NCBI GenBank assembly: GCA_027314645.1 | Contig: DAHVAL010000012.1 | Span: 1-53,553 of the forward strand | Origin: Nitrospirota bacterium | GTDB taxonomy: Bacteria; Nitrospirota; Leptospirillia; Leptospirillales; Leptospirillaceae | Direction: 5' to 3' | Length of the DNA stretch: 53,553 nt | Shown: positions 20,310 through 30,606 of the stretch, one piece after another | Numbering within the stretch: position 1 is the first letter of the stretch | How the letters are laid out: every line of letters starts with the position of its first letter | Notes under the pieces: model-generated | What the model saw: the letters and a program-made list of their open reading frames with translations, nothing else | Databases searched by the model: none | What the model was told of the DNA's origin: nothing | Made by a program: the position numbers and the translations under genes

Positions 20310-21401
20310 GTGAGAATAGCCCTGGTTTCAACCCCTTATGTCAGTGTTCCCCCCAAAAAATATGGAGGAACGGAGCTTTTCCTGTACCATCTTTCCGAAA
20401 AACTGATCGATCGGGGACATGAGGTCGTTCTCTTTGCCACGGGGGATTCACGGACCCGCGCCTATGTGGAATGCGCGTTTCCATCGGCCCGCTGGCCGAT
20501 CGTTCCTCGGGACGAACAAATCCATCTGGCCTTTTCGGCCAATCGAATCATGGCAAGAGGGGATATAGACCTCGTCCATTGGCAATCTCCTGGGGCGGTC
20601 CCGTATGCATCCATTACCGGCCTTCCCTCCGTCGTGACGCTTCATCACGTGCATACCCCCGAGTTTTCGGAAATCTACCGCCACTACCCGGACAACCATT
20701 ATGTGGCCATCAGTCACTCCCAGAAAATGCAGGAAATCGGCCTTCCCCGATTTTCTGTGATCCACCATGGCTTGGATCCGGCGGCCTATCCCCCTTCCTT
20801 CGAGGCGGGCGCCTATGCGGCCTATCTTGGCAGGCTGGCACCGGAAAAAGGGCCGGACAGTGCGTGCAGGGTGGCGTTCAAGACGGGAATCCCTCTTCAT
20901 GTCGGTGGCGCAGTCCATAGCGATGATCTCACCTTCTTTCACGAGACGCTCCGGCGCACTCTTCAGAGCCCCCTTGTCAATTGGCTGGGTCAGGTGGATC
21001 ATCTCCAGAAGGTTGCCCTTCTCCAGGGGGCGAGAGCGCTTTTGGTGCCCCTTCGCTGGGAAGAGCCGTTCGGCCTTGTCATGATCGAAGCCATGCTCTG
21101 CGGGACGCCCGTCATTGCCTTCAAGCGCGGGGCCGCGACGGAGCTTGTGGAGGACGGCATCACGGGGTTCCTCGTAGACACCGAAGAGGAGATGGCCGAC
21201 GTTTTGGCCCACAAGGTCTCCTCGATCGACCGGCGGGCGTGCCGGGCCAGAGCCTCCGAACTGTATTCGACAGAGGTCATGGTCGGGGCGTACGAGGCGC
21301 TCTACCGCTCCATCCTGAGGGAGGCAAAGCCCCAGATCAGGCCCGAGATCAAGATTGAAACGCCGTCGGTCCTGAAGCGTCCTCTCACGGAGGTCAGGTG
21401 A
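20310..21401 (+). CDS. GT4-family glycosyltransferase
   Basis: Retaining glycosyltransferase with GT-B fold, 363 aa. N-terminal VRIALVSTPYVSVPPKKYGGTE is the acceptor-side loop of GT4; the donor-binding end shows YLGRLAPEKG and E-x7-E in EEPFGLVMIEAM plus ATELVEDGITGFLV. GTG at 20310 is preferred since AAGGAG lies 7 bases upstream; open frame extends 23 codons further. The stop overlaps the OtsA start, so it is coupled to trehalose synthesis, but donor and acceptor are unknown. Confidence 0.88.
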   Translation: MRIALVSTPYVSVPPKKYGGTELFLYHLSEKLIDRGHEVVLFATGDSRTRAYVECAFPSARWPIVPRDEQIHLAFSANRIMARGDIDLVHWQSPGAVPYASITGLPSVVTLHHVHTPEFSEIYRHYPDNHYVAISHSQKMQEIGLPRFSVIHHGLDPAAYPPSFEAGAYAAYLGRLAPEKGPDSACRVAFKTGIPLHVGGAVHSDDLTFFHETLRRTLQSPLVNWLGQVDHLQKVALLQGARALLVPLRWEEPFGLVMIEAMLCGTPVIAFKRGAATELVEDGITGFLVDTEEEMADVLAHKVSSIDRRACRARASELYSTEVMVGAYEALYRSILREAKPQIRPEIKIETPSVLKRPLTEVR

Positions 21402-22981
21402 TGGGCGCTGTCCTGTCCCTGTCACACATTTCCTCCGTCACGAAAGAACGTGGGCCGGAGGCGTGCCAGAGCCCGGAGGAGATGGTCGCAACCTATCACA
21501 ACGCGTTTGGGCAGGCCCCAATGCTTGTGGTGACGAATCGGGAACCGATCATCTGGGAGGGGGGCGGGTCTTTTTCCTTTCCCCCCGGCGGGGTGAGCCA
21601 GACCATCCATCGGTTGATGGGACAGGTCGGCGGGGAATGGATCGCCTTTCGGGACTCTTCCGGGCCCGACCTTGTCAGGGTTCCGGCGGAGATTCGAAGG
21701 GGGACTCCTCCGGGGTATCTTCTGCGCCGGGTGTCTCTTCCCGGCCAATTGCGGGATGCGCATTATGCCGGTTTTTCAAACGGCGTCCTCTGGCCCTTTT
21801 TTCACGACGATCCTTCCCGGATCGATCGGACCGGGGACTTCTTCGAGCCCTATCTTCAGGTGAATCGGCGTATGGCAGGGAGGATTCTGGAGTCCTTGAC
21901 CGCATGCCCGGCAGGAGCCATCTGGATTCATGACTATCAAGTCGCTCTCGTGGGCCGGGAAATCCGCAGAATGGCGGGGCATGCGCTCCCTCCGCTGGCG
22001 TTTTTCTGGCATATTCCCTGGTGCGAGGGGGTCAGTGAAAAATCGTTTGACGAATTTCCTTGGCTTTCCGAGCTTGTGGACGGTCTTCTCAGCCATGATC
22101 ACGTCGGCTTTCAGACCACGCTTTACCGTGAACGTTTTCTGGAGTCTGTGAAGGTCCTGTACGGAGAGAGCCGGGTCACCTGGGACGGTGCGATTCTTTC
22201 AGTGATCACCTCATGGGGGACCCGGACGCTCTCCCTGGGGGTCCATCCCGTCTCCATCGATCCCGGCCATTTTGATCGCCTGGCCGGGGCCGAGGAAGGG
22301 GTGTCCGAAGCTCGGAAGGTGCTAAGGGAGACGGGATTGCTCGATATGGACGGCAGGGCGGTCCCATTTTTGATTTCTGCCGAGCGAATGGACTATTCGA
22401 AGGGATTTTTGGAACGGCTCGAGATCCTGGAGTCCCTTTTCACCCACTATCCTTGCCGGATCGGCCGGCTTTCCTTATTGCAGATCGCCCCTCCGACCCG
22501 ACAGAACGTGGACTCCTACCGAACCTACAGGAAAAAGGTTCAAGAAGCCGAAAATCGCTTGAATGCCCGGTTCAGACAGGAAGACGGATGGGTGCCGGTC
22601 AGGACGGTCCCCCGCGCGTTGGATCAATCCATCCTTGCTCCCCTTTACAGGATGGCCGCCGGAGCGCTCATCACGTCGACGAGGGACGGGATGAACCTTG
22701 TGGCAAAGGAATTTTTGGCCTCCCAGCGCGGGAAGGGTGGCATTCTCTTCTTAAGCCGGTACACGGGAGCCGCCCAAACCATGGAAGGCCCCGTTCAGAT
22801 CGACCCATTCGCCCCGGCTCATTCGGCCCGTCTCATCCATGAGGAGCTTTTGCGCGACCCCTCGATTCGAAGACGCCGGAACCTCCTCGCTTTGGCAGAC
22901 CTTTCGAAGCACAACGTCTATCAATGGATGCTGGAAAACCTCTCATCGCTCCGGGAGGCCTCCGTCCCCGCGGAAGGATAA
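21401..22981 (+). CDS. otsA: Trehalose-6-phosphate synthase (GT20)
   Basis: Transfers glucose from UDP-glucose to glucose-6-phosphate. The 526-aa protein has the GT20 landmarks IWIHDYQVALV, FFWHIPW, DHVGFQT, SAERMDYSKGF (UDP/phosphate-binding Arg and Lys region), LQIAPPTRQNVDSY and TSTRDGMNLVAKEF. The first 40 residues form an extension compared with E. coli OtsA. HIPW replaces the common HIPF. A preceding in-frame GTG at 21398 is possible. The stop overlaps otsB by one base. Confidence 0.9.
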   Translation: MGAVLSLSHISSVTKERGPEACQSPEEMVATYHNAFGQAPMLVVTNREPIIWEGGGSFSFPPGGVSQTIHRLMGQVGGEWIAFRDSSGPDLVRVPAEIRRGTPPGYLLRRVSLPGQLRDAHYAGFSNGVLWPFFHDDPSRIDRTGDFFEPYLQVNRRMAGRILESLTACPAGAIWIHDYQVALVGREIRRMAGHALPPLAFFWHIPWCEGVSEKSFDEFPWLSELVDGLLSHDHVGFQTTLYRERFLESVKVLYGESRVTWDGAILSVITSWGTRTLSLGVHPVSIDPGHFDRLAGAEEGVSEARKVLRETGLLDMDGRAVPFLISAERMDYSKGFLERLEILESLFTHYPCRIGRLSLLQIAPPTRQNVDSYRTYRKKVQEAENRLNARFRQEDGWVPVRTVPRALDQSILAPLYRMAAGALITSTRDGMNLVAKEFLASQRGKGGILFLSRYTGAAQTMEGPVQIDPFAPAHSARLIHEELLRDPSIRRRRNLLALADLSKHNVYQWMLENLSSLREASVPAEG

Positions 22982-23805
22982 TGGCGCTGCCCTCTTCCCC
23001 ACGTGATCAAATCCCCGTCCTGTTCCTGGATTTCGACGGAACCCTGGCCCCGATTTCGCTGCATCCGGATCGCGTCCGTCTAAAAACCGATCAAATCGCT
23101 CTCCTGGAGTCCCTTTCCCGGTCGATGCCTGTATTTGTGATCTCTGGCCGGGCCTTCCCCGATATCGAACAAAGAATTCCGGTCATCTCCCTCTCCGGCC
23201 TCTCAGGGGATCACGGGGCGGTGAGAAAGTTCAAGAACCGGTTGCACATTCACCCCGAGGCGGCGCGCTCAAAGGAGGCCTTGAAAGACTTCGGGGCCCA
23301 TCTGGTCAATGTCACCAACACCGTTCCGGGAGCCCTCACGGAGGTGAAGGATTTCAGTCTTTCCGTCCATTACCGGGGCGTGGACGCGGACCACCTTCCG
23401 CTCTTGACCCGGGAAGTTGAGCGATTGTTCAACGCCTGGAGCGAGCGGAGGAGGTTTCGGATTTCCCCGGGGAAGATGGTGTGGGAAATTCGCCCGTCCC
23501 AAGGAGTGACGAAAGAGGAAACGGTGGATTTTTTCCTGAATCTTCTGCGGGAGGAATCGGCCCAGCCGGCGGGAACCCTCACCCCGATCATGGTCGGAGA
23601 CGATACCACGGATCTTGGCGCGGTCAATCATGCGGCCACACTTGGAGGCCGGGGACTTTGGGTCGGACCTCCCCCTCAGGGCCTTGACCCCCGAGTGAAA
23701 ATACTCGCCAGCCCGGAGGAGGTGTGGGATCTCCTCGCACGGTTTATAAAGGTGCTGGAGAGTGGCGGGGATCTCTTGGAAGAAGAATTCCTCAGCTCCG
23801 AATGA
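22981..23805 (+). CDS. otsB: Trehalose-6-phosphate phosphatase
   Basis: HAD-type phosphatase converting trehalose-6-phosphate to trehalose, 274 aa. Motif I is FLDFDGTLAPI near residue 16, motif II VISGR near residue 53, followed by GDHGAVR, and motif IV MVGDDTTD near residue 206. Start and stop of otsA share one base with this start (TAATG). Trehalose is a general stress and osmotic protectant. The 3' end overlaps the convergent rmlD-like gene by 14 bases. Confidence 0.92.
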   Translation: MALPSSPRDQIPVLFLDFDGTLAPISLHPDRVRLKTDQIALLESLSRSMPVFVISGRAFPDIEQRIPVISLSGLSGDHGAVRKFKNRLHIHPEAARSKEALKDFGAHLVNVTNTVPGALTEVKDFSLSVHYRGVDADHLPLLTREVERLFNAWSERRRFRISPGKMVWEIRPSQGVTKEETVDFFLNLLREESAQPAGTLTPIMVGDDTTDLGAVNHAATLGGRGLWVGPPPQGLDPRVKILASPEEVWDLLARFIKVLESGGDLLEEEFLSSE

Positions 23806-24835: not shown

Positions 24836-25759
24836 ATGCGATATCTGGTAACGGGAGGAGCAGGCTTCATCGGATCGAACCTTGTCCTGCGTTTGGAAAA
24901 GGACCGGCACGATGTCACGGTGATCGATGATCTCTCATCAGGACATTTCAAGAACCTGATCGGGTTTCGAGGGGATTTTTTTGCAGAAGATCTCTCCGAG
25001 ATGGACCTCATTGCCCGTTTTGACAGGAAACCCCCGTTTGATGCCCTCTTTCACCAAGCGTCCATCACCGATACCACGGTCATGGACCAGAAATTGATGA
25101 TGAAGCGAAATGTCGAAGGCTTTCATCGTATCATCGAGTATGCCCTCCGTTTCCAGATTCCGGTCGTGTATGCCTCCTCCGCCGGCGTCTATGGAGCCAA
25201 TCCAAGCCCCCAGGACGAGGATCAGGGTCCCGCCCCCCTGAATGTGTACGGATTTTCGAAGGCCGTCCTCGACAATGTGGCCCGGAGGGCCGCGGCCGGA
25301 TTTTCCCGGACAATCGTAGGGCTTCGCTACTTCAATGTGTTCGGACCGGGAGAACAGCACAAGGGGTCCGCCGCCTCCATGATCTATCAGCTCTACTGCC
25401 AGATGAAATCGGGAAAGGCTCCCCGGGTCTTTAAGTGGGGGGAGCAAGGACGCGACTTCGTCTATGTCAAGGATGTCGTGGAAGCCAACATCCTTGCCCT
25501 CACCGCCCGCTCCTCGGGAAGCTTTAACGTGGGCTCGGGGTCGGAAACCTCGTTCAACACGCTGATCGACACGGTCCGGACCGCTCTGGGTCTTGATCTG
25601 AAAACGGAATATTTTGACAATCCCTACGACTTTTACCAGGAGCACACCTGTGCGTCGATCGAGCAGGCGGGGGCCGTCATGGGATATTCTCCCCGATTTT
25701 CCGTCGTGGAAGGCATCCGAGATTACCTCGACTATCTTGAGCACAAAAAAAGTTCGTAA
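24836..25759 (+). CDS. hldD: ADP-L-glycero-D-manno-heptose 6-epimerase
   Basis: Epimerises ADP-heptose for LPS inner core. The 307-aa SDR begins [13 protein letters not shown], then has HQASITDTTVMD (replacing the usual HEGA.SST), YASSAGVYG, catalytic Tyr-Lys in NVYGFSKAVLDN, GLRYFNVFGPGEQHKGSAAS and DFVYVKDVVEAN, all typical of HldD rather than GalE. AAGGAGA lies 8 bases before the ATG. Together with LpxA it indicates a full LPS. Confidence 0.9.
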   Translation: MRYLVTGGAGFIGSNLVLRLEKDRHDVTVIDDLSSGHFKNLIGFRGDFFAEDLSEMDLIARFDRKPPFDALFHQASITDTTVMDQKLMMKRNVEGFHRIIEYALRFQIPVVYASSAGVYGANPSPQDEDQGPAPLNVYGFSKAVLDNVARRAAAGFSRTIVGLRYFNVFGPGEQHKGSAASMIYQLYCQMKSGKAPRVFKWGEQGRDFVYVKDVVEANILALTARSSGSFNVGSGSETSFNTLIDTVRTALGLDLKTEYFDNPYDFYQEHTCASIEQAGAVMGYSPRFSVVEGIRDYLDYLEHKKSS

Positions 25760-25765
25760 AAGGGA

Positions 25766-27610
25766 GTGAAGGTCCAGGTGAGAGGATCGTCTTTGGCAGG
25801 CTCTGTCCTTCTCCTTGGCGGGTTGCTTTTTTCGATCCTGCCTGCTTCCCGGGTCGGGGCCGCTCCGACGTCTGAGGGCCGTCCGCAAGGAGCGATTTCC
25901 TATTCGGACCTTTCCGCCCTTTCCGTCGTGGATCGCGTGGAGAGTGAACGGGAAGACCTGGCGCGGGTCACCACCGAAATAGAATTGCACTATGGGACCG
26001 TCAAGAGTCGATCGATCGCCAACGCCCTGAGGGGGATTGCGCGCTCTCTGACACCGTTTCTGCTCCATCCCGCTTTTCCCGTCGAGGTCATCTTGATCGA
26101 TGCAGACAAGCCGGCGGGATTTTATCTTGGAGGTGAGACGGTTGTCCTGACCCGCGGCCTGGTATTTTCCGGGCTCATTCACGATACCGATACCTTGGCC
26201 GGGATTATCGCCCTTCTTCTCTCCCGCCACGACCTCTTAGACGATTCCTCCGGCCAGTTTTTGTCCGGGCAAAAACTCATCCTCCGCCGGAACAGGGAAG
26301 CCAAAAATGCGGCCATGATCCTTTTGCGGTCCGGATATCATTACGGAGGGCTTGTCGAGGCCGTCCGGATCCTCGATACCCTCCGAAGCGGCCCGGACTG
26401 GTCCAAGACCATCGATTGGCTGATCCGTAACAAGGACCGGATCATTTCCGGAACCGCAGAACTCCAGGACGGCATTTCCTTGCTTCTCTCCGGGCGTCCG
26501 GCCGCCTCCGTCCCGTTTCTTGTCCGATACGCGGATACCTCGCCCCGTTCCATTGAAGGCCGATACTGGCTTGGACTCGCCTATTACCGGGATTACTTCA
26601 GAACGGTCCGGGTCGGACCCGAGACCTTCCTGTTTTCCGTCGATCCTCTTCCGGAAGAGACGTCGCTTCCGGCGAAGGAAGGGAAAAAGCGACGGTGGGA
26701 GCTTGATTTTGCTCGAACCATCTGGTCCGGAATCCTTCAAGATTCGCCGTCTTTTTCGCCGGCATGGAATGGGCTGGGGAGAATCGCTCTGATGGACGGT
26801 CATCCCCGAACCTCCCTCAAATTTTTTGGGAGGGCGGCGCACCTCAACCCTGATTCGCCATGGTATTCGGCGGATTATGCCTTGGGACTCTGGATGAGGA
26901 ACCACAAGGTCCTGGGGATCCGACGCTGGATGGACGCGACGAATCAAGCGGGGTACGATCCCCGCCTCATCTATGATCAGAGTATTCTCGCAAGGATGGG
27001 GGGGCCTCTTGAGCCCTTGGGCATCCAGCGGGTTATGAAGATGCCGGGATGGGAATTTGCGCGGGGCCTCCGGGGAAAAGGAAAGGAAAAAACGGAAAGC
27101 CGGCCAATTCCATCCTTTATCGGTCCGATTCTCCCGGCCCCGATCCTGCCGGGAGTGGATTCGATGCGTGTCAAAAGGGTGCTAGGGATACCGACGACGG
27201 CGCCCATCCATTCCCATCGCTACCTCATTTGGGATTACCGATTCAAATATTACCGACTGGCCTTTCGGGGAAAAACGCTCCGCCTTGCAGAATATTTCGG
27301 AAAAGTTCAGATGAAGCTTCCGGAATATCCGCCCCGGCCAATCTCGAAGACGTCGAGAAAATTTCCGGAGGACGATCCGGTTGAAGTCATTGCCTATGCG
27401 CGCATTGCCTTCCTCCGCTACCAAACGAGCAGACATCAATGGATTGTACAAAGGGTGGACAAGGTCCTCGACCGATTTATCGTGGTCTCCATCCGGCCGG
27501 ATGTTCCGGGGGGAATTTCTCCGGTCCGGTCGGCGTCGCCCAGGCCCCGCTCCGATCAAAATGGTCGGGGGAAGGGAAGGACACTGCCTCCCGGCGGGCT
27601 GGGCCAGTGA
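25766..27610 (+). CDS. Exported M48-like protein lacking HExxH, with TPR-like region
   Basis: Secreted or periplasmic protein of 614 aa. A signal peptide (basic start, hydrophobic stretch to about residue 28, SRVGAA) is followed at about 100-155 by an M48-peptidase-like segment: VEVILIDADKPAGFYLGG and VVLTRGLVFSGL. Where M48 enzymes have HExxH this protein reads LLLSRH, so the zinc site is broken. Residues about 325-385 look like TPR helices (SPAWNGLGRIALMDG). The C-terminal 60 residues are Pro/Arg-rich. GTG 25766 is close to its Shine-Dalgarno; GTG 25778 may be the true start. Possibly a BepA-like chaperone that has lost protease activity; this is inference. Confidence 0.72.
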   Translation: MKVQVRGSSLAGSVLLLGGLLFSILPASRVGAAPTSEGRPQGAISYSDLSALSVVDRVESEREDLARVTTEIELHYGTVKSRSIANALRGIARSLTPFLLHPAFPVEVILIDADKPAGFYLGGETVVLTRGLVFSGLIHDTDTLAGIIALLLSRHDLLDDSSGQFLSGQKLILRRNREAKNAAMILLRSGYHYGGLVEAVRILDTLRSGPDWSKTIDWLIRNKDRIISGTAELQDGISLLLSGRPAASVPFLVRYADTSPRSIEGRYWLGLAYYRDYFRTVRVGPETFLFSVDPLPEETSLPAKEGKKRRWELDFARTIWSGILQDSPSFSPAWNGLGRIALMDGHPRTSLKFFGRAAHLNPDSPWYSADYALGLWMRNHKVLGIRRWMDATNQAGYDPRLIYDQSILARMGGPLEPLGIQRVMKMPGWEFARGLRGKGKEKTESRPIPSFIGPILPAPILPGVDSMRVKRVLGIPTTAPIHSHRYLIWDYRFKYYRLAFRGKTLRLAEYFGKVQMKLPEYPPRPISKTSRKFPEDDPVEVIAYARIAFLRYQTSRHQWIVQRVDKVLDRFIVVSIRPDVPGGISPVRSASPRPRSDQNGRGKGRTLPPGGLGQ

Positions 27611-27659: not shown

Positions 27660-28016
27660 GTGAAAAGGAGTGCCCGATTGTCACGGATCGGTGGTGGGAT
27701 GGTCCTTCTTGCCCTGGTGGCGGCGATAGGACCCTTGGCCTCCGGGTGGGCAGACGGAGAGGGGGGCAAGAGGATTTACCTTGCACGCTGCCAATCCTGC
27801 CATGGTGTCCATGGAGACGGGAAAGGCCCCAAGGCCCGGGGGCTTGTTCCTCCTCCCCCGGACTTTACCGACCCCTCCTATTGGCAGAACAAGACGGATC
27901 CGTACCTTTTCCACGTGATCCAGAATGGGATGGGGGCGATGCCCGGCTGGTCGGACACGCTCTCGCCGGACAGCATCGAAGACGTGCTCTCCTATATCCG
28001 GACCTTCCGCCCCTGA
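27660..28016 (+). CDS. Small class I cytochrome c (exported)
   Basis: Periplasmic monoheme cytochrome c of 118 aa. A hydrophobic signal sequence spans about residues 12-31. The heme motif CQSCH is at about 45-49, followed by GVHGDGKGP, and the distal methionine probably lies in GMGAMPGW near residue 91. The GTG at 27660 has AAAGGAG 8 bases upstream. It lies downstream of the M48-like gene and converges on the ferredoxin gene with a gap of 7 bases. Electron partner unknown. Confidence 0.9.
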   Translation: MKRSARLSRIGGGMVLLALVAAIGPLASGWADGEGGKRIYLARCQSCHGVHGDGKGPKARGLVPPPPDFTDPSYWQNKTDPYLFHVIQNGMGAMPGWSDTLSPDSIEDVLSYIRTFRP

Positions 28017-28723: not shown

Positions 28724-29926
28724 ATGATGGAATTCAAGCGAATCACCCAGCTTCCTCCCTATGTATTCAGCGCTGTCAATGATATGAAGTTGGCTGCCCG
28801 CCGAAGGGGGGAAGATATCATCGATCTTGGAATGGGAAACCCGGACCTTCCCACCCCCGCTCCTATTGTGGACAAAATGGTGGAAGCCGTTCGCAACCCG
28901 CGGAACCACCGCTATTCGACCTCGAAAGGCATTCCCAGGCTCAGGGAAGCCATTGCGGCGTGGTATGCCCGGAGGCATCAGGTCACGCTCGATCCCGACA
29001 CCGAGGCGGTTGTCACGATCGGCTCAAAAGAAGGGATTGCGCACCTGGCCCTGGCGACGATCGATCCCGGTGACCGGGTCCTGGTTCCGAACCCTTCCTA
29101 TCCCATCCATGCCTTTAGCTTTGTTCTGGCCGGGGCGACGGTGAGCCACTATCCCATGATTCCGGGACGGGATGTCTGGAACGATCTCCTGGAGGCACTG
29201 GAGCGCGCCGAAGGGCCGATAAAAGCGGTTCTTCTCTGCTACCCCCACAACCCCACCGCTTTGACTGTTCCGGAAGGGTTTTTTGAGAAAATTGTGGCCC
29301 TGGCGCAGGAGCGGAATTTTTTTGTGATCCATGACCTTGCCTACGCCGACATCACCTTCTGCGGGTACAAGGCTCCGTCGTTTCTTTCGACCCCTGGGGC
29401 CAAGGAGGTCGGCATCGAATTCTACACCCTGTCGAAATCGTACAACATGCCCGGATGGCGGGTCGGGTTCTGTGTCGGAAACAAGACCATCGTGAATGCC
29501 CTGACCCGACTCAAAAGCTATCTCGATTACGGGACATTCCAGCCGATTCAGATTGCGAGCATCATCGCCTTAAACCAAATGGACCACTTCCCCCGACAGA
29601 TCGCCGATGTCTATGAAAAGCGGTGCCATGTTCTCGTCGATGGGCTGGTCAGGGCGGGGTGGGATGTGTCGATGCCGAAGGGGTCCATGTTTCTGTGGGC
29701 GAAGATTCCCCCGCAATGGGAGTCGATCGGCTCCCTTGAATTTTCCAAGCTCCTGATGTCCGATGCTCAAGTGGGGGTTTCTCCCGGCATCGGGTTCGGT
29801 TCGATGGGAGACGATCACGTGCGATTTGCGCTTGTCGAGAATGAAAGCCGTATCCGGCAGGCAACGATGAATATTCGCCGGTTTTTAGCGAGAAGCCGAC
29901 CGGGAATGGAAGAGGTGCATTCATGA
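28724..29926 (+). CDS. Class I/II PLP aminotransferase, AlaC-like
   Basis: 400-aa fold-type I aminotransferase. It has GMGNPDLPTP near residue 38, YSTSKGIPRLREA, PNPSYPIH, NPTALTVP, the Asp of HDLAYADITF and the PLP lysine in TLSKSYNMPGWRVG near residue 239. The pattern is that of AlaC-type alanine/glutamate or aspartate-family aminotransferases. First gene of the operon leading to hom, thrC and lysC, so a role in supplying or balancing aspartate/alanine/2-oxobutyrate-family amino acids is likely. ATG at 28727 is an alternative start. The stop overlaps the next gene (ATGA). Confidence 0.9.
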   Translation: MMEFKRITQLPPYVFSAVNDMKLAARRRGEDIIDLGMGNPDLPTPAPIVDKMVEAVRNPRNHRYSTSKGIPRLREAIAAWYARRHQVTLDPDTEAVVTIGSKEGIAHLALATIDPGDRVLVPNPSYPIHAFSFVLAGATVSHYPMIPGRDVWNDLLEALERAEGPIKAVLLCYPHNPTALTVPEGFFEKIVALAQERNFFVIHDLAYADITFCGYKAPSFLSTPGAKEVGIEFYTLSKSYNMPGWRVGFCVGNKTIVNALTRLKSYLDYGTFQPIQIASIIALNQMDHFPRQIADVYEKRCHVLVDGLVRAGWDVSMPKGSMFLWAKIPPQWESIGSLEFSKLLMSDAQVGVSPGIGFGSMGDDHVRFALVENESRIRQATMNIRRFLARSRPGMEEVHS

Positions 29927-30606
29927 ATATCGTTCGGACTTCTAAGAGGCGCATTAAAAAGGGAACCTCCCTATTTTTCGGGGCAATCATGGCCTGGGCG
30001 CTGGTGACTCCGACTCATGCAATGGCATGGAGCTGGCAATTGGGAACGACCCAAGAGACCATCCTCGGGATCTTCAAAAAGGGGGACCCCGGTCTCGCAC
30101 CGAGAAAAGGGGCGTCCACCGAACTTCCGTGCGGCATCTACACCGATTATGACGCTCATCCGACCGATCGATTTCTTTTCTACTCCCCGACAAAGCTTCC
30201 CAACGGCCGGATGTCCCCGGAGTTCCAGTTCGAATTTCGGAGGAACACGCTTCAGGCCGTTCTCGTGACGGCCCCCTTTCAAGGGATCAAGTCCGATCCG
30301 ACCTGGCGGCTTCGGGATATTCTCCCGGTCGCGCTCCAGGGTGTGCCTCCCCGCATCATACACGCGGGTGTTCTCTCCCAGGCCAAGGGGATCAATCTCC
30401 CCAAAGATGCCGTCCTTATTTGGGATTACCCGGGAAGTGGTGGAAAGGTCCGAGAACTCCAAGTCCTCGTCTACAATGCCGATCTGTCCCCGGACTACCT
30501 TCCGGACGCACCGGTTGCGGCCTACCTGCGAGCCTACCGTGACGTTCTTCTAGACGAGGGGAAAACCATCCCGCTCCCGATGTCCAATCCATTCATGAAA
30601 TATTAA
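29923..30606 (+). CDS. Secreted protein of unknown function in amino-acid operon
   Basis: I do not recognise this 227-aa protein. A basic N-terminus (KRRIKKG) and hydrophobic stretch at about 16-33 ending THAMAWS predict a Sec signal peptide. The mature part is about 190 residues, has a single Cys and no known motif. It is coupled to the aminotransferase by ATGA and lies 25 bases before hom. Why an exported protein sits within a cytosolic biosynthetic operon is unexplained. Confidence 0.8.
   Translation: MNIVRTSKRRIKKGTSLFFGAIMAWALVTPTHAMAWSWQLGTTQETILGIFKKGDPGLAPRKGASTELPCGIYTDYDAHPTDRFLFYSPTKLPNGRMSPEFQFEFRRNTLQAVLVTAPFQGIKSDPTWRLRDILPVALQGVPPRIIHAGVLSQAKGINLPKDAVLIWDYPGSGGKVRELQVLVYNADLSPDYLPDAPVAAYLRAYRDVLLDEGKTIPLPMSNPFMKY

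Follow-up and report, generated by a model that had tools for sequence, protein, structure and literature searches.

A probable exported pseudoprotease of BepA/LoiP-type M48 ancestry, encoded directly behind hldD in Leptospirillaceae

The window, by which we mean the whole 53,553-nucleotide stretch of DNA analyzed here, comes from a Nitrospirota bacterium of the family Leptospirillaceae. An open reading frame on its forward strand, at 25766–27610, begins with GTG and encodes a protein of 614 amino acids. Directly upstream lies hldD, whose product scores 315.1 bits against TIGR02197 (cut-off 274.6); six bases separate the hldD stop from the GTG. The features are as follows:

24836..25759, + strand: hldD, ADP-glyceromanno-heptose 6-epimerase (TIGR02197)
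25766..27610, + strand: whole gene (ORF), encoding a putative, probably exported pseudoprotease of M48 descent that carries TPR repeats
25766..25864, + strand: signal-peptide-like N-terminus, aa 1–33, without cysteine (translation read by eye)
25988..26380, + strand: M48-like domain, BepA/LoiP type, aa 75–205 (hhalign, P 5.8e-9, 130 columns)
26114..26158, + strand: segment aligning with NAF..PGG and with TRGLL-like motifs in active M48s (profile alignments)
26213..26227, + strand: LLLSR in place of HExxH, with loss of the zinc site (alignment)
26288..26290, + strand: Arg at the inferred third zinc ligand position, with the GYHY Gly 15 residues further on (spacing)
26507..26902, + strand: TPR-like region, aa 248–379 (Pfam below cut-off; designed TPR proteins)
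27155..27244, + strand: weak BamE-like motif, aa 464–493, tentative (hhalign)

A first-pass annotation of this DNA proposed an exported M48-like protein with a TPR-like middle, and that outline holds. The protein starts with a hydrophobic, signal-peptide-like stretch, recognized by eye, and is probably exported to the periplasm. Pfam TPR matches in the middle fall below the cut-off, with the best at aa 324–379, and alignment with designed TPR proteins spans about aa 248–369. An M48-like part (aa 75–205) followed by TPRs (about aa 248–379) is the order found in BepA. The C-terminal part comprises about 150 aa, and the tail, earlier called Pro-rich, is not conserved. The Pfam M48 profile (PF01435) does not match the window protein up to E 10, and a PDB sequence search with the N-terminal family profile returns no match. 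AlphaFold models, built from five close sequences only, are unusable (mean pLDDT 32.1 for the full length and 42.1 for the N-terminal domain). These low-confidence models show the LLLSR stretch as helical, preceded by two short strands, a predicted arrangement that fits M48 and proves nothing; Foldseek with the N-terminal domain model of pLDDT 42.1 finds nothing at E 0.001, its top candidate standing at E 0.53.

Matches to the protein occur in 24 of 395 Nitrospirota genomes. Fifteen of these are among the 21 genomes of the window’s family; the nine from other families are weak and lie mostly in the TPR part. The same-genus set consists of the window and nine others at 57–68% identity, one of them partial, and four sister genera contribute five orthologues at 32–35% identity. 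A full-length profile matches at E 0.001 in 239 of the 395 genomes; outside the family, among the matches listed (at most three scored candidates from each genome), only the TPR part is covered. An N-terminal profile run on 148 genomes finds the 14 known members and, beyond them, weak short matches in 15 genomes (best E 0.006). The six family genomes without the gene are 66–80% complete. They are also without an hldD orthologue, the best relatives being 27–35% identical, and they keep an hldE-type domain, in one case just under the cut-off. Because these genomes are incomplete, miss hldD too, and keep the hldE-type domain, assembly gaps likely explain the absence, and we dropped co-loss of hldD and the gene as evidence.

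The orthologues in 14 other family genomes, together with dN/dS values of 0.04–0.20 across three regions and four pairs, rule out a chance open frame. Specifically, dN/dS (NG86, four close pairs, of which the sister-genus pair approaches saturation in dS) is 0.043–0.124 in the M48-like part, 0.049–0.126 in the TPR part, and 0.069–0.203 in the C-terminus. Purifying selection acts on the M48-like domain. All 14 members that retain the N-terminus share 33 unchanging N-terminal columns. The RG of (T/S)RG, D..AG, and G.HY are likewise invariant over the 14.

The ancestry of the N-terminal part was assessed with hhalign, by comparing a family profile of the 14 orthologues with M48s of other Nitrospirota families. 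Against a profile of 25 BepA/LoiP-type proteins from those families, LoiP-type being our own label, the N-terminal family profile aligns over 130 columns with P 5.8e-9 and 95.9% probability, and the whole-length profile aligns with P 1.9e-8. The best of 60 column shuffles reaches P 0.017. Profiles built separately from the nine same-genus members and from the five sister-genus members match at P 6.9e-7 and P 2.2e-7, respectively, and the match extends to the downstream helix around GYHY. A preceding profile of 20 mixed M48s (11 BepA/LoiP-like and nine Ste24-like) had given P 2.1e-7, with its controls, 10 shuffles and a reversal of the family profile, at best 0.085. It was rebuilt because nine of its 20 members are Ste24-like, and the clean 25-member profile matches better. 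Ste24-type ancestry is not supported (P 0.075–0.38), nor is HtpX-type ancestry (HtpX-only profile, P 0.032–0.17); a mixed HtpX and LoiP-like profile gives P 0.0033. M48 profiles of 6, 13 (mixed), and 17 sequences match weakly (P 3e-4 to 0.026).

Could the resemblance be chance or convergence, so that the protein is an exported TPR scaffold whose N-terminal domain has nothing to do with M48? Such a reading would account for the lack of a Pfam M48 match and of a usable model, and single members score weakly against the 25-member profile (E 1.1e-5 to 0.18). Moreover, the M48 comparison set was picked after the likeness had been seen by eye, so the P values hold for a chosen hypothesis. Against this stand the wide gap between the family profile and its 60 shuffles, the independent matches of the two subclades, the specificity for the BepA/LoiP type, and the extension to the helix around GYHY. 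A ranking test points the same way: when the 14 members and 950 ORFs, including 20 real M48s of which 12 are in the profile, were searched with the 25-member profile, none of the 930 non-M48 ORFs outranked any of the 14 members. The margin was narrow, with the lowest member at E 0.18 and the best decoy at E 0.19; under the mixed profile, one member at E 0.23 fell behind one decoy at E 0.16. We regard coincidence as highly improbable. These profile comparisons give good support to a BepA/LoiP-type M48 origin of the diverged N-terminal domain.

The zinc site of this domain has been lost throughout the family. No HExxH occurs in the window gene's open frame, nor in those of 14 further orthologues, one of which is partial; an intact motif elsewhere in the protein, the possibility raised at first pass, is thus ruled out for all 15 frames. 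With the zinc positions placed by gapless alignment on the preceding Asp...Ala-Gly, the first His position of HExxH reads L in six, I in three, Y in four, and F in one of the 14 orthologues with an N-terminus. The Glu position is L in all 14, and the second His position is R in nine and E in five. For the downstream ExxAD glutamate, a 15-residue spacing found in 8 of 11 BepA/LoiP-like controls points to a position occupied by R (nine), I (three), T (one), or V (one). HPxxxxR, the BepA His-switch motif, is absent within 80 residues in 14/14 orthologues and present in 20/20 control M48s; these controls were chosen by HExxH, and the ExxAD-type and HPxxxxR patterns matched in all 20. As far as the accessible text of PMC7950410 describes them, the BepA zinc ligands are H136, H140, E201, and H246, and the four lost positions correspond to these residues. 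For its part, hhalign opens a gap of four residues where the family would have HExxH. A deleted helical turn in place of substitutions is therefore possible, and no ligand would be left either way.

The first-pass annotation had read LLLSRH in place of HExxH. LLLSR does occupy that position, but the RH is no landmark, because the five sister-genus members read LLAEQ, LLAER, LLAEK, or LLSER there. Its question whether the loss is common to the clade can be answered: HExxH is gone in 14/14 orthologues with an N-terminus, from five genera. Given this breadth and the purifying selection, the loss is ancestral in the family and the protein has been conserved since. Because all four zinc positions are lost, the window protein should be non-proteolytic and without catalytic zinc.

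One alternative grants the ancestry and denies it a function: the M48 remnant would be a fossil spacer, and the TPR and C-terminal parts would do the work, for example in a BamE- or BamD-like role. Pfam does recognize only the TPRs, plus one chance-level family, and the C-terminus carries the weak BamE-like motif. Specifically, hhalign aligns this stretch with BamE over about 30 columns for the whole family (25.3%, P 7.6e-4) and over 29 columns for the sister genera only (56.1%, P 1.1e-4). The best of 20 shuffles gives 0.12, and the comparison set consists of nine weak BamE matches, four of them over the cut-off. Pfam finds no BamE match in the C-terminus of the window protein, and BamE likeness is only hinted at. 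Selection speaks to both sides of the question. The M48-like part is not the part with the lowest dN/dS in two of four pairs; in the other two it is, its values are low in all four, and the RG, D..AG, and G.HY positions have remained fixed across the 14 members. We consider a fossil spacer unlikely, and we favor an M48-like part that retains a function of its own. Separately, the window’s genome encodes another BamE-like frame (L102; contig C9, 25259–25471), which has a lipobox-like start and scores 22.4 bits against a Pfam cut-off of 23.2.

The neighborhood of the gene offers a clue to what that function might be. As the first-pass annotation had placed it, hldD is the upstream neighbor, and it lies directly upstream in all 12 loci for which upstream DNA is available (eight in the same genus and four in sister genera). 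The second flank claimed there, a cytochrome c gene, stands for the same genus only: cytochrome and ferredoxin genes follow in nine same-genus loci but in 0/5 sister-genus loci, where a convergent amidophosphoribosyltransferase-like frame, named from its translation, follows in 5/5. The cytochrome neighbor is uninformative. The location of the gene immediately after hldD suggests that its product takes part in building the LPS/outer-membrane layer. We did not find hldD in the available flanks of 50 M48 loci of other families, apart from one distant 27% relative, so the synteny ties the gene to no particular active M48.

Other features of the window deserve brief mention. The cytochrome at 27660–28016 (+), which adjoins the gene in the same genus only, is small and distantly like cytochrome 579 (NF033864, 39.2 bits, cut-off 280). 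A frame at 29923–30606 (+), directly after an aminotransferase gene, encodes a protein of 227 aa whose start resembles a signal peptide by eye; it has no Pfam match up to E 1 and no NCBIfam match up to E 0.001. Finally, a trehalose synthesis pair, otsA–otsB, lies at 21398–23805 (+), with OtsA at 304.8 bits, well below the equivalog cut-off of 564.85.

The family appears to be without an active BepA-type M48, since nearly all of its genomes carry a single M48 match, of the HtpX type wherever it is complete. Specifically, PF01435 has exactly one match in 20 of 21 family genomes. Nineteen of the matching proteins are complete, and all of these are HtpX-type with intact HExxH, 66–91% identical to that of the window’s genome; none is BepA-type, and the 20th is partial. 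Outside the family, 53 genomes were sampled: two to eight matches occur in 47, one in four, and none in two. In a second Nitrospirota group, the genomes G003, G013, G031, G039, and G046 (family f4, genus g8) have zero or one M48 match each and none to the window protein.

Acidity might explain the lost site. If an extremely acidic periplasm protonates His ligands, exported His-zinc proteases would be useless and the zinc site would decay. The HtpX active site faces the cytoplasm, and HtpX is the only M48 type that the family retains. Leptospirillum, moreover, is termed the sole extreme acidophile of its phylum in the accessible text of PMC7231039. Two points weigh against the idea: the presumed exported M23 zinc peptidases of the family keep both ligand motifs, by pattern, in 25 of 30 loci (five are unmatched), which weakens the explanation, and the window’s source organism is an acidophile by inference. 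We rate acid-driven loss as very unlikely.

We consider it probable that the protein is a periplasmic pseudoprotease derived from BepA/LoiP-type M48s that acts as a chaperone or scaffold, perhaps in LPS or outer-membrane assembly. A non-cutting helper role is probable because the zinc ligands are lost and yet the protein is kept beside an LPS gene. The chaperone or scaffold role draws on BepA biology and on hldD synteny. In E. coli, per the accessible portion of PMC8423444, the BepA edge strand (mutated at 105–107) contacts LptD and is needed for both chaperone-like and proteolytic activity. The window family keeps a counterpart of this strand, AGFYLGG or MAYLLNG. The notion is that the edge-strand counterpart and the TPR surface would hold outer-membrane assembly intermediates and that bound clients could not be degraded, the zinc site being gone. 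The protein could thus serve as a holdase or scaffold for assembling outer-membrane or LPS-export proteins. We favor this idea because the edge-strand stretch is kept and the RG of (T/S)RG is invariant; client binding, and with it the link to LPS or outer-membrane proteins, is what we infer from these features. LptD itself is unsupported as the client, because PF04453 is found in only 2 of 21 family genomes.

Loss of proteolysis does not by itself turn BepA into a good chaperone. The same portion of PMC8423444 reports that LptD maturation is weakened with the protease-dead BepA(E137Q); from it and the accessible part of PMC7950410, this variant is a weak helper and worsens vancomycin sensitivity in E. 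coli. A more ambitious version of the chaperone or scaffold reading, which we offer as doubtful speculation, joins a BepA-type module without zinc, TPRs, and a C-terminus like BamE in one exported protein that is co-made with the last enzyme of ADP-heptose synthesis. It would be a dedicated, non-proteolytic assembly factor tying LPS core supply to the outer-membrane translocon or to barrel assembly, and it would have replaced active BepA family-wide.

Pseudoenzymes are common, and the window protein is ordinary in kind as one, but it is real and family-wide. Among the M48/BepA papers listed, none reports a zinc-less BepA in its title or at the start of its abstract, and we found no literature joining Leptospirillum with an M48 peptidase. 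BepA, M48, and HtpX are absent from the main text of an acidophile proteostasis paper (PMC10490939). In E. coli BepA, the chaperone-like and proteolytic tasks are tangled, and E137Q makes a poor helper, as the available text of PMC8423444 describes. A natural BepA relative that dropped its zinc site before the genera split, and is nonetheless conserved, would cleanly test the fold’s own non-proteolytic function. The protein is also a lead for outer-membrane biogenesis in the leptospirilli.

How does the protein compare with known systems? Other metallopeptidase families likewise contain conserved proteins with dead zinc sites; in a term search, M48, BepA, Oma1, and Ste24 are absent from the main text of the review of such pseudopeptidases (PMC11266112). 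BamE (SmpA/OmlA) shares the short, weak VxxxLGxP...WxY-like stretch. HtpX of the window’s genome (locus L029) is also an M48, but it has an intact HExxH and hydrophobic N-terminal segments. LoiP/YcaL-type single-domain M48s are part of the matching 25-member profile, but they have HExxH and, at about 280–340 aa, no room for the TPR part. The closest parallel is BepA (YfgC) of E. coli, which has the same M48-then-TPR order and belongs to the type for which the profile match is specific; the edge-strand and TRG regions were aligned with BepA-like M48s of other Nitrospirota. Unlike BepA, the window protein is without HExxH, the third-ligand Glu, and HPxxxxR, has about 150 further C-terminal residues, and is coupled to hldD.
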